The position numbers and the translations under genes were made by a program. Shown piece after piece: positions 1,923-12,995 of a DNA stretch of 12,996 nucleotides. Each line of letters begins with the position of its first letter. Within the stretch, counting starts at the first letter, position 1. The notes beneath the pieces were generated by a model. The model made no database searches. It saw only the letters and a program-made list of their open reading frames with translations, and was not told where the DNA came from. Source of the stretch: an uncultured Hippea sp. (GTDB lineage: Bacteria; Campylobacterota_A; Desulfurellia; JAADFJ01); NCBI GenBank assembly GCA_913009315.1, contig CAJVZA010000058.1:1-12996 (forward strand), given 5' to 3'.

Positions 1923-2513
1923 TTATGCAATCAGAGGTTTTAAATGAATCATAATAGCTTGACGCAAAAGGGTCGTTTATATTACTATTTATATTATCCG
2001 GAGCAATTTAAAGCTATGATACATAGAAGATTTATTGTAATAGTATGTATTATAATTGCTGTTTTGCTCAACTCTTATCTATATGCGTTTGCGGGCAATT
2101 TAACTGTTCCTTATCTGTACCACGGCTATGAAAATGATATCAACTACAGCATCAATAAAATTGGGAAAAATTGGGAAATTTCATTAGGTGCAGCCGTAGT
2201 TATTGGAGCAAGTTTTTTTACGGATAAGGCAGCAAAAAGTTATTTTGTCAAACATCAAAACGATGGAATGAATCATTTTACGAACATTGTTAAATCTTTT
2301 GGAAACGGGTTTTTTGTTCTTCCGATAGCCGCAGGGCTGGGAACGATAGGCTATATTTCAAAAGACGACAGATTACTAAACGCTTCATACACATCTATCG
2401 AATCAGGATTGACTGCTGCAGCTATCACAGGTTTGATAAAATTTACTGCCGGAAGAGCCAGACCAAGAATAACCGGCGATACTTTACGTTTGAAACCTTT
2501 TAATGTACATAAT

Positions 2514-2776
2514 GAGACCACTGCACAGTAAGCATATCCACAGAAGTCAAAGAAAGGGTGAGATTTAGAAATTAAAATTTGAGGTACTAACCGGTTAGTT
2601 TGAGAATTTTAATTTCCTGAAGATTGCCCTTTCTTTGGCTTCCCTGCGGGCTTTATGAGGTTTCCCATATACTTCGTTAAACTTCTTTGAATTAACCCGT
2701 TAGTCCTTCAGAAGTTTGCCTTGTCTATAGAAAACCTCATAAAAAGCTGTGAATTTGCTTATTGTGCAGTGGTCTC
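2514..2776. mobile_element. MITE-like palindromic element (copy C) inserted in the PAP2 gene
   Basis: The element begins GAGACCACTGCACAGTAAGC and ends with its near-exact inverted copy (one mismatch in 20). It is flanked by direct repeats ATAAT at 2509-2513 and 2777-2781, the expected target duplication; TAA with one more base in each terminus is an equivalent reading. No transposase is encoded. The left arm, 2513-2558 (46 bases), pairs with 2628-2643 plus 2748-2777 (16 + 30 = 46 bases), interrupted by a separate hairpin at 2644-2747. Inner arms 2568-2579 and 2605-2616 pair perfectly over 12 bases, around the 14-base palindrome ACTAACCGGTTAGT (2586-2599). Without the nested part it would be a nearly full-length hairpin of about 161 bases. 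Mobilisation by a transposase encoded elsewhere is inferred. Confidence 0.8.
2644..2747. mobile_element. Second palindromic element nested inside copy C
   Basis: This 104-base block interrupts the right arm of copy C exactly between GGCTTC and TGTGAAT, which are contiguous in copies A and B. It has its own inverted ends, TTTATGAGGTTT (2652-2663) and AAACCTCATAAA (2732-2743), and an inner perfect 8-base pair, AAACTTCT (2679-2686) and AGAAGTTT (2710-2717). I could not identify a clear target duplication around it. It has no coding capacity. The nested-insertion reading rests on the arm arithmetic and on comparison with copies A and B. Confidence 0.55.
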
Positions 2777-3110
2777 ATAATAATTATCAATCTTTTCCAT
2801 CGGGAGATGTCACGGTTGCATGGTCGTTTATAACCCCTTATGCCGTTTATTATCATCAGCCTCTTCTCTATTTGATACCGCTTTCGGTCAACATTGAAAG
2901 AATCTATAAAAATGCCCACTGGTTATCTGATACTTTAATGGGAACAGCAATCGGTTTTTTTACCGGATACTTATTCAGCACATCTCATATCAATAACGAC
3001 TTTTCAATTTATACCGATGGCAAAACAATTGATATAAGCTGGAAATTTTGATAGCCGATTTTGATTATATTTTCATTTTAACGAACCGAAATATCTACAG
3101 ACAAAGAAAA

Positions 3111-4247: not shown

Positions 4248-6341
4248 TTAATCTTTAATCCACACTATATATGCTTTGCCGTCTGTGAAAAATTGATCTC
4301 CATAGAAATTTTTGCCTGTGAACGGTTTTGTTAATCGTATAAGTCTGTATTTTTTTATCAAACCGTTATTTTTCAAATTTTTAAAGAAAAAGTCTCTTTC
4401 GTTGTCCACATAAGGGCTTATTTTATGTACAATCCACCTGAATCCTTCATCAAAACTCAAAGCCGCAACATAAATCCTTTCACCGTTGATAGTAAATGGC
4501 GTTTTCCAAATTCTACCGTGATGTCTTACCTTTACGCTTTTTGTAGGTTTCTCTATACCGAAATTATTTACTCTGTAATCCCAAAAATCAGGCGATATGG
4601 ACGCTTTATTGTACGGCCTGCTTGAAATGAGTGCTTCCATAAATCTTTCCACAGAATTCAGATTTAGTTTATCTGCCAAATACCAGCCTGCATTTCTTAT
4701 GGCACTCAAGAGCTCTTTGTCGCTTTTTGCCACAATTATAAAGTTTACCGGTTCCTGTCTTGCTCCAATAATAGTATAGGTATATTTCAACTTTTTATTT
4801 TTAAATATAGTTGTTATGTTATCTATAGGTACGGTTTTTATTTGCGGTAGTTTTAATAATTCAGGTTTAAATGTGTATCCCAAATATGCATACCCTGACA
4901 GAGATAAAACAATCAAAGCGATGGATACGATTTTTACTGATGGGTTTATTGTGTGACTGCTGCCGTTTTTATGTTTGAATAAATAATATTCACTAATTGC
5001 TATGCCTGTTATAACCCACAAAGCACCCAGCATATAGCCTGCCCATACATCGCTGAAATAGTGCACGGATAGATAAATTCTGCTTAATCCTGTTAGAAAT
5101 ATTATAAGAAAGGCGGCAAAGGCTATATTAAGTCTGCTCTTGAGATTCTTTATTTCTCTTATCAGGATATATGCAATAAAACCATAGAAGGCAACAGCGA
5201 TTGCGGCATGTCCGCTCGGAAAAGAATAAAAAGATTCATGATATACTGCAGCAAGCGGCCTTTGTCTTCCCACCAAATATTTTATCAGATTATCGCTTAA
5301 AACCGTGAAGATAACTGTTACTGATAAGGGAAGTATGTAATTATGCTTTTTATGAATAATCAGGATAATCAAAACCGCTAAAGAAATAATTATTATGGTT
5401 TTTGTATTGCCAAGCATAGTTATAAATAAAAATAGCTTAACGAGAGACAGACTTCTGAAACTTGCAAGAAGATTAGAAAACATCAGATCAAACTGAGCTA
5501 TTTGACCAAAGTGCATTACATCCAAAAGTGTTCCTATAAAAGCTATAAAAAGATAAACAAAGGATATTGATAAAAGTGTAAGCGGCAAACCGGAAAATTT
5601 CTTTCTATCAACTCTTTTTGCCAAAAAGTCAAACAGTTTTGAGTGTTTCTTAGTAAAAGCTTCCACATCAGGATTTTCTTTTATGGAATAAAACAAAGAT
5701 TTCTGAAATTGCCAAATACTTTTTCCGTCTTTTATTATTAAAAATTTAATCATATAGAACAGAACAAACAGCAAAAATATAAAAGCAAGGAGAAGTGTTA
5801 GATGTCCGAGCCATGCCCTTGCCAAAGAAAGCGATGAACCGAAAAGATATCCGACAGATAAAAACTCAAGACTCCATGCTATACAGCCAAGCAGATCCCA
5901 GAAAAGAAATTTCCTCATATCCATCTTAACGCTTCCGGCAATAAACGGGAAAGTTTCTTTTAATCCGGGGATAAGTCTGCCGAGAAACAGAGCTTTTGCG
6001 CCGTATGTATTAAAAAAATATCTCCCCTTTTCGAAATGTTTCTCTTTTATAAACCGTTTGTTCTTAGCCCACGAGTATCCGTATTTTCTGCCTATGTAAT
6101 AATTTATGTTATCACCTATAAGTGCTGCAATAACGGCAAACCACATAAGATCGCCAAAGTCATAATAACCGTTTGCAGCCAAAGCTCCAAAAATTAAGAC
6201 AATTGTGGAGCCTGGCATAAAAAGACCCACGATCAAAATAGTTTCAAGCAGAGCAGCCGAAAACAGTATCCAGTAGCCCCAAATGCCAAGGTGCGATATA
6301 TTGGGAAGAATAATATTTTGAATAGTGTCTATAATATGCAT
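4248..6341 (-). CDS. DedA-PAP2-LssY triple-domain membrane protein
   Basis: A 697-residue fusion. Residues about 20-175 form a DedA/SNARE-associated domain with FMPGSTIVLIFGALAA (41-56), GDNINYYIGRKYG (76-88) and GRLIPGLKETFPFIAG (121-136). Residues about 255-450 form a PAP2 phosphatase with all three motifs complete: KYLVGRQRP (354-362), SFPSGH with catalytic His378, and SRIYLSVHYFSD with Arg421, His427 and Asp431. After one more helix (about 470-490), the last 200 residues resemble the soluble LssY C-terminal domain. DedA proteins are known undecaprenyl-phosphate translocases, and PAP2 enzymes dephosphorylate C55-PP, so one polypeptide could release and recycle the lipid carrier. The ATG directly follows the uppS stop codon with no base between, supporting coupled translation. 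Phosphatidic acid or another lipid phosphate remains a possible substrate. Confidence 0.9.
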   Translation of the reverse strand: MHIIDTIQNIILPNISHLGIWGYWILFSAALLETILIVGLFMPGSTIVLIFGALAANGYYDFGDLMWFAVIAALIGDNINYYIGRKYGYSWAKNKRFIKEKHFEKGRYFFNTYGAKALFLGRLIPGLKETFPFIAGSVKMDMRKFLFWDLLGCIAWSLEFLSVGYLFGSSLSLARAWLGHLTLLLAFIFLLFVLFYMIKFLIIKDGKSIWQFQKSLFYSIKENPDVEAFTKKHSKLFDFLAKRVDRKKFSGLPLTLLSISFVYLFIAFIGTLLDVMHFGQIAQFDLMFSNLLASFRSLSLVKLFLFITMLGNTKTIIIISLAVLIILIIHKKHNYILPLSVTVIFTVLSDNLIKYLVGRQRPLAAVYHESFYSFPSGHAAIAVAFYGFIAYILIREIKNLKSRLNIAFAAFLIIFLTGLSRIYLSVHYFSDVWAGYMLGALWVITGIAISEYYLFKHKNGSSHTINPSVKIVSIALIVLSLSGYAYLGYTFKPELLKLPQIKTVPIDNITTIFKNKKLKYTYTIIGARQEPVNFIIVAKSDKELLSAIRNAGWYLADKLNLNSVERFMEALISSRPYNKASISPDFWDYRVNNFGIEKPTKSVKVRHHGRIWKTPFTINGERIYVAALSFDEGFRWIVHKISPYVDNERDFFFKNLKNNGLIKKYRLIRLTKPFTGKNFYGDQFFTDGKAYIVWIKD

Positions 6342-7082
6342 CTAAGACGTTCCGTTAAATAATTTTATAGTTTGCCTAAGTCCGCCAAAATTTCTCTGCC
6401 TTTTTTTAAATTCTTTTATGGCTTTTATAAAGTCGGATTTTGTAAATTCAGGCCAGTATTTATCTAAGAAAACAAATTCAGCGTATGATGCTTCCCATAA
6501 AAGAAAATTGCTTATCCTTTTTTCGCTGCCTGTTCTTATCAAAAGATCAACATCCGGCATACCTTTTGTGCAGAGGTAGCTGTTTATAGTACCTTCGGAT
6601 ATATCTTTGATCGATAACTTTCCTTCTTTGGCATCCTTGGCTATTTTTTTACAGGCTTGGGTTATTTCAAGGCGTGAGCCATAGTTCAAAGCTAAAGTCA
6701 AAGTCATCGTTTCATTGTGTTTTGTTTTTTGAGTAACGCTCTGAAGTATATTCTGTGTTTTTTCGGGGAATGCTTTTATATTTCCTATAAAATTGAATTT
6801 TATATTGTTCTCGCAGAATAACTTTTCTGTTTTTTTTAAATATATATTCAAAAGACTTATAATAAATCTGATTTCTGATTTCGGCCTTTTCCAATTTTCT
6901 GTAGAGAAAGTATAAAGCGTCAAATACTTTATACCTATACCGGATGCTGCTTTTGTTATTTTATCCACAACTTTAGAACCTATATAGTGTCCGTATGTTC
7001 TGTTTTTACCGAGAGATAGAGCCCATCTTCCGTTGCCATCCATAATGATGGCAACATGAACAGGTGTTTTGTCGGACATCAA
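6342..7082 (-). CDS. uppS: Undecaprenyl diphosphate synthase (cis-prenyltransferase)
   Basis: This cytosolic, membrane-associated enzyme condenses isopentenyl diphosphate units onto farnesyl diphosphate to make C55-PP, the lipid carrier for peptidoglycan and O-antigen. The 246-residue length is normal. Motifs are complete: VAIIMDGNGRWA (10-21) with the Mg-binding Asp15, YTFSTENWKRP (57-67), DLLIRTGSEKRISNF (179-193) with the pyrophosphate-binding Arg183 and Arg189, and WEASYAEF with Glu202. The start is an ATGATG doublet preceded by AAAGAG. It lies 24 bases after the LysE-family gene and directly abuts the DedA-PAP2-LssY gene. Usual neighbours such as cdsA, frr and dxr are absent; whether this is the only copy in the genome cannot be seen here. 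Confidence 0.96.
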   Translation of the reverse strand: MMSDKTPVHVAIIMDGNGRWALSLGKNRTYGHYIGSKVVDKITKAASGIGIKYLTLYTFSTENWKRPKSEIRFIISLLNIYLKKTEKLFCENNIKFNFIGNIKAFPEKTQNILQSVTQKTKHNETMTLTLALNYGSRLEITQACKKIAKDAKEGKLSIKDISEGTINSYLCTKGMPDVDLLIRTGSEKRISNFLLWEASYAEFVFLDKYWPEFTKSDFIKAIKEFKKRQRNFGGLRQTIKLFNGTS

Positions 7083-12578: not shown

Positions 12579-12706
12579 GAGGCTGTTGATAAACTCCTAT
12601 TTGTCATTGCGAGCACCGAAAGGTGCGTGGCAATCCCTTTATTGTCAACGTTTTTTGAGATTGTTCCGTCACTCTATTCCCGGCAATGACATTTATCAAC
12701 AGGCTC
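12579..12706. mobile_element. MITE-like hairpin element with a GTCATTGCGAG-type repeat inside
   Basis: Inverted ends GAGGCTGTTGATAAA (12579-12593) and TTTATCAACAGGCTC (12692-12706) match at 14 of 15 positions and are flanked by TTTG on both sides (12575-12578 and 12707-12710), a likely target duplication. The inside carries a second inverted pair, GTCATTGC (12603-12610) and GCAATGAC (12683-12690). It also has a sharp hairpin, GCACC-GAAA-GGTGC (12613-12626), within ATTGC/GCAAT arms. The GTCATTGCGAG...GTGGCAATCC motif is a familiar dispersed repeat of several bacterial phyla (recalled, not searched). There is no coding capacity. It lies 30 bases beyond the kinase stop. Confidence 0.6.
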
Positions 12707-12995
12707 TTTGCATTTGACAAAACTCCTTGATTTCATCCGTATCGGCTAAGACCGACAGGCTTATTTCTCTGTAGTTGATTAAAAACAAGGGTATCTCAGC
12801 CGGAAGAATGGAATCATGCGGGGGTTTTTATTGATAAAAGATGTAGAATTTTGATACCCGGCTTATATGCAATAGTTTCATAATAAAAACTACAATCAGA
12901 CTAAGTCCTATGCTTTTACCCTGTTTTTGATTGTCGGCGATAACCGTAATCTTATCTCTGCCTTTTAAGGCTGCCGCTATAGCTTCAACCTGACG
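12696..12995 (-). pseudogene. Coding remnant with in-frame stop, family not recognised (runs off window)
   Basis: One minus-strand frame entering at 12995 reads 55 residues, RQVEAIAAALKGRDKITVIA onwards, to a TAA at 12828-12830. The same frame then stays open for 43 more residues, including AEIPLFLINYREISLSVLAD, until a TGA at 12696-12698 contributed by the end of the MITE-like element. Both segments have protein-like composition, so this may be the tail of a gene broken by a premature stop and then cut by the element. Equally, the real gene may end at 12828. I do not recognise the family. Bases 12549-12996 otherwise contain only the MITE-like element. Confidence 0.35.

Follow-up and report, generated by a model that had tools for sequence, protein, structure and literature searches.

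How a lipid phosphatase gene came to stand in two pieces is the question raised by a stretch of DNA from an uncultured Hippea sp. This stretch of 12,996 nucleotides, the window, corresponds to contig C58 in a draft genome (G000; 1.74 Mb, 96 contigs, 87.6% complete). The host belongs to a phylum-level group of 25 genomes including a Hippea MAG, and Hippea is placed in Desulfurellia by NCBI. An interrupted PAP2-type lipid phosphatase gene occupies positions 1944-3051. Its 5' part (1944-2513, plus strand) comprises 190 codons with motif 1 (KX6RP), and its 3' part (2782-3051, plus strand) comprises 89 codons and a stop, with motif 2 (PSGD) and motif 3 (RX5HX3D). The two parts are separated by an element of 263 bp (2514-2776) and by the two copies of ATAAT, directly read at 2509-2513 and 2777-2781, that flank it.

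The open reading frame of the 5' part (1944-2531) closes at a TAA at 2529-2531, within the element, and the 3' frame, listed as 2749-3051, begins within the right arm of the element. The codon AAT at 2511-2513 is in frame with the ATG at 1944, and the AAT at 2782-2784 carries this frame on once 268 bp are removed. Rejoined in this way, the halves give 279 codons (190 + 89), and the protein is recognized as PAP2 by PF01569 (E = 1.4e-15). Both halves are open and undamaged. The sequence-only reading had described a PAP2 gene split by a 263-base element between ATAAT repeats, of which the removal together with one repeat yields a continuous 279-codon gene; its coordinates are right to the base, and the frame and the family match agree with it. 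The same reading set motif 1 before the junction and motifs 2 and 3 after it. This placement stands, except that motif 2 (2797-2808) has the sequence PSGD rather than PSGH. In the closest homolog (L178), Asp likewise replaces the motif-2 histidine, so PSGD is a trait of the subfamily and not decay following the insertion.

Three PAP2 homologs are contiguous across the exact junction, and the insert is found in none of them. The closest, from a MAG labelled Desulfohalobiaceae, is 60% identical over residues 50-279 and reads FNMSSNYQSFPSGD where the window has FNVHN/NYQSFPSGD. A homolog from a Hippea sp. MAG (G023; L179/L023) is 54% identical and reads FNTDDKYQSFPSG, after which its contig ends, and the third (L022, genome G034) is 45% identical. 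The two congeners G001 and G002 showed no detectable homolog of the PAP2 gene nor of the neighbouring MFS gene, and for this reason no syntenic empty site is available at the DNA level for this insertion. Taken together, the homologs show that the PAP2 gene was intact before the insertion broke it in two.

The palindrome, its folding, the dispersed copies, the counts of terminal inverted repeats (TIRs) and the filled and empty sites identify the element as a non-autonomous MITE without coding capacity. Its left TIR (GAGACCACTGCACAGTAAGCA...) lies at 2514-2543 on the plus strand and the right one at 2747-2776 on the minus strand; with the flanking repeats included, complementarity between the arms 2509-2543 and 2747-2781 reaches 89% over 35 nt. 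The interior holds two palindromic modules, module A at 2543-2642 with two 50-nt arms of 70% complementarity, and module B at 2652-2743, in which the arms 2652-2672 and 2723-2743 are 86% complementary. As a single strand, the element folds at -60.2 kcal/mol, compared with -22.3 +/- 3.8 for shuffled sequences (z = -10). Signals for a promoter or terminator created by the element did not rise above those of the shuffles, and Rfam gave no match within the window. Two further remains of the family lie upstream. An older eroded copy of the right end (1805-1921, TIR at 1901-1921) lies 22 bp ahead of the start codon of the PAP2 gene, and a relic right end occupies 1011-1064, with its TIR at 1044-1064 carrying 3 mismatches.

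The TIR GAGACCACTGCACARTAARC has 85 + 84 matches (169) in G000 at no more than 3 mismatches, and the reversed-pattern control has 0; the element is present in roughly a hundred copies in this genome. The congener G001 has 78 + 73 matches, and G002 has 1 + 2. With the whole element as query, 0 matches were found in 11 further genomes, most of which belong to the same class, and comparison of the MITE DNA with plasmids and phages gave no match. The TIR pattern had two single matches in viral contigs, neither of them a TIR pair; one (L137) is a lone TIR-like stretch within DNA that appears to be ordinary coding sequence, and both were set aside. Most copies are intergenic, and many contigs of G000 end inside a copy. 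The closest relative of the window copy, on contig C5, differs from it at 1 of 263 bases, which indicates that the movement is recent; the copies on C24 and C43 each differ at 6 of 263.

The five flanking bases follow the consensus ATWAT over 185 element ends. Comparison of G000 with G001 gave four sites that are filled in one genome and empty in the other, with flanks overlapping by exactly 5 bp and with elements of 263, 154, 263 and 261 bp. The copy on contig C43 (L076, 9262-9524), 98% identical to the window copy, splits an 891-codon gene judged by eye to be formate-dehydrogenase-like, and the congener sequence of this gene is uninterrupted across the aligned flanks. With the insertion in the window, the clear gene disruptions thus number at least two. 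That a transposition event hit a gene that had been intact, as proposed from the sequence alone, is borne out by the contiguous homologs, by sibling copies identical at up to 262 of 263 bases and by the filled and empty sites with exact 5-bp duplication. Neither outcome named as refuting it was seen: none of the three homologs carries the same 263 bases, and homologs with a contiguous junction exist.

Copies of the family fall into length classes of about 47-63, 136-220, 257-275 and 299-457 bp. One orthologous site holds 52 bp in G000 and 457 bp in G001 between the same flanks, which means that the element changes length in place. Some at least of the length variants, from about 47 to 457 bp, originate at the site itself, and slippage at the bases of hairpins is the likely route. 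A 49-bp copy on contig C13 (L064, 3058-3106), the flanks of which are unmatched, ends a membrane protein gene that is UPF0014-like as judged by eye and continuous in G001; this arrangement is consistent with deletion beside or between copies. A supposed change from 262 to 49 bp at this site was rejected, since the congener stretch is gene sequence and not an element. A second palindromic repeat, which starts near GGGCAACTCTATTAAT, is present in some long copies. The window itself has, at 1738-1860, a palindromic stretch (AAAGGACATTTACCAATC...GAATCAACAGAAGTGTCCTT) related to a module that is nested in long copies of the family elsewhere; it is possibly a mobile palindrome in its own right.

A trace of the probable transposase source is present in G000 on contig C15, where a DUF772 transposase reading frame sits behind a perfect 20-bp MITE terminus. 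This copy and the MITE have 20 of 20 terminal bases in common, after which the sequences diverge. The transposase is truncated, lacking its C-terminal part, and its element lacks the far (right) terminus. Among the named relatives of this transposase, the best is 56% identical and is located on a plasmid of Aliarcobacter cibarius (pACIB element). That element measures 1,529 bp, has the ends GAGACCACTGCA... and GAGCCCACTGCA... with ATATA on both sides as a 5-bp duplication, and begins with the same 12 bases as the MITE terminus. A more distant IS1182 relative from Priestia has the TIR GAGACC and the 5-bp duplication CCTTG; the IS relatives in other genomes have the first 6-12 terminal bases in common with the MITE. 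Against NCBIfam, the C15 fragment scores 123 bits for IS1182 (cut-off 270) and 111 for IS5_4 (cut-off 140), both below cut-off; the full-length Aliarcobacter transposase reaches 179.8 for IS5_4, above 140, and 186 for IS1182, below 270. The C15 terminus, these relatives and the scores place the probable parent in an IS5_4/IS1182-like clade.

Some candidates were discarded. IS5 relatives of Agrobacterium and Lactococcus have GGACCCCTC- and GGGCACCTCT-like termini and no 5-bp duplication, and a TIR pair 2.6 kb apart on contig C37 (L093), which looked autonomous, encloses ordinary genes. A search of the genome_contigs collection with the C15 transposase gave no confirmed match, and the analysis yielded no intact transposase bounded by both termini. 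The source of the transposase is probably an IS5/IS1182-like insertion sequence, and a transposase of the C15 type, or an intact copy missing from the assembly, may have moved the MITE.

The explanation that can be held with high confidence is that an IS-derived MITE, probably moved in trans by an IS5/IS1182-like transposase, recently split the PAP2 gene at an ATWAT target. A DDE transposase of this clade, acting in trans, would recognize the TIRs of about 30 bp (GAGACCACTGCACARTAARC...), make a 5-bp staggered cut at ATWAT and insert the MITE; gap repair of the cut would then produce the 5-bp duplication. A recent insertion of this kind split the gene. A very improbable alternative is a reversible switch, in which precise loss of 268 bp, whether driven by a transposase or caused by hairpin-mediated slippage from one ATAAT repeat to the other, reactivates PAP2 in part of the population. 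The precise excision of Tn5 and Tn10 is an example of slippage deletion at direct repeats flanking a palindrome, and the direct repeats here surround a near-perfect palindrome in just such a deletion-prone arrangement; the intact state of both halves and the changes of size in place within the family agree with it as well. However, the undamaged halves are accounted for by the recent insertion alone (1 of 263 bases against the sibling copy), the largely intergenic distribution is unlike that of a dedicated switch, and no excised form was found. That the element could be excised, as proposed earlier, remains a conjecture: no molecule or genome was seen to have this PAP2 site empty at the DNA level, and an intact transposase was not recovered. 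It is very improbable that the hairpin MITE acts as a switch on PAP2, and perhaps also on the formate-dehydrogenase-like gene of C43, with precise loss through the ATAAT repeats regenerating the gene at a useful rate. If true, cells of one population would differ in their energy metabolism and in the lipid phosphate of their envelope.

The split could also be an artefact of assembly, the contig joining flanks from two different repeat copies. The family often breaks assembly, as the many contig ends inside copies indicate; nevertheless, the two flanks are parts of a single PAP2 gene, are in frame and carry matching 5-bp repeats, and the homologs are continuous across the junction. An artefact is slightly less credible than the switch. 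Least credible of all is that the break in the gene is only apparent and that the insert is an in-frame tolerated palindromic element, similar to those of Rickettsia, or a self-splicing intron. A palindromic element does lie inside a gene here, and adding 5 bp to the lengths of the shortest family members mostly gives multiples of 3. Yet the 268-bp insert shifts the frame and carries stops, none of the 76 listed TIR pairs is crossed by an open reading frame of at least 100 codons, and the window had no match to a group I or group II intron model.

The recent MITE insertion remains the preferred reading. Rickettsia palindromic elements (RPEs), like the present MITE, are palindromic repeats able to sit inside genes. 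RPEs remain in frame within expressed genes; the copies of the present family do not. REP/REPIN elements with RAYT are likewise high-copy short palindromes. A 5-bp target duplication is not known for REP elements, whereas the present family has both this duplication and the terminus of a DDE transposase. The IS5_4/IS1182-like elements of Aliarcobacter cibarius and Priestia have in common with the MITE the terminus GAGACC(ACTGCA) and the 5-bp duplication; unlike it, they encode a transposase, and the IS end of G000 agrees with the MITE over no more than about 20 terminal bases.

The element is short and non-coding, with TIRs, a 5-bp duplication and dispersed near-identical copies, as in the definition of prokaryotic MITEs (PMC10969869). 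MITECca01 of Cardinium, with 169 copies, is a comparable case (PMC9769881). IS-derived prokaryotic MITEs such as MITECca01 and QMITE2 of Coxiella are mobilised in trans by a related IS; as in the present family, they are non-coding, below 500 bp and mostly intergenic, with TIRs, short target duplications, a strong hairpin and high copy number (PMC10969869, PMC9769881, PMC5896051). The present family differs from these in its termini, its target (ATWAT, 5 bp) and its parent IS clade, in its strong variability of length with nested palindromic modules, and in its host lineage, a Hippea relative for which no description was found. The family appears undescribed, while the type of element, an IS-derived MITE, and the insertion event are ordinary.

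Other features of the window were noted. A 697-codon reading frame at 4248-6341 fuses, as judged by eye, a DedA-type membrane domain to a second PAP2 domain; it adjoins an undecaprenyl-diphosphate-synthase-like frame at 6342-7082, and a phosphatase-like frame and a two-component system are also present, all likewise assigned by eye. The L178 homolog adjoins a PAP2/dual-specificity-phosphatase-like frame and a response regulator. The interrupted gene may plausibly act in the metabolism of lipid phosphates of the envelope. Another high-copy repeat, at 12579-12733, has about 12-14 matches in the G000 stretches examined, with inverted ends near AGGCTGTTGATAAA and TTTATCAACAGGCT enclosing a TCATTGCGAGC...GGCAATGACA palindrome, and is possibly a second MITE-like family.

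For metagenome bins, the locus offers a worked example of how gene disruptions can be called, and no new principle. For the organisms, it documents a recently active and very abundant MITE family that reshapes the small genomes of Hippea relatives, disrupts genes (PAP2, formate-dehydrogenase-like), breaks up metagenome assemblies and lets insertion sites be compared between two species to the exact base. Since the parent IS is truncated, the family may be losing its transposase.
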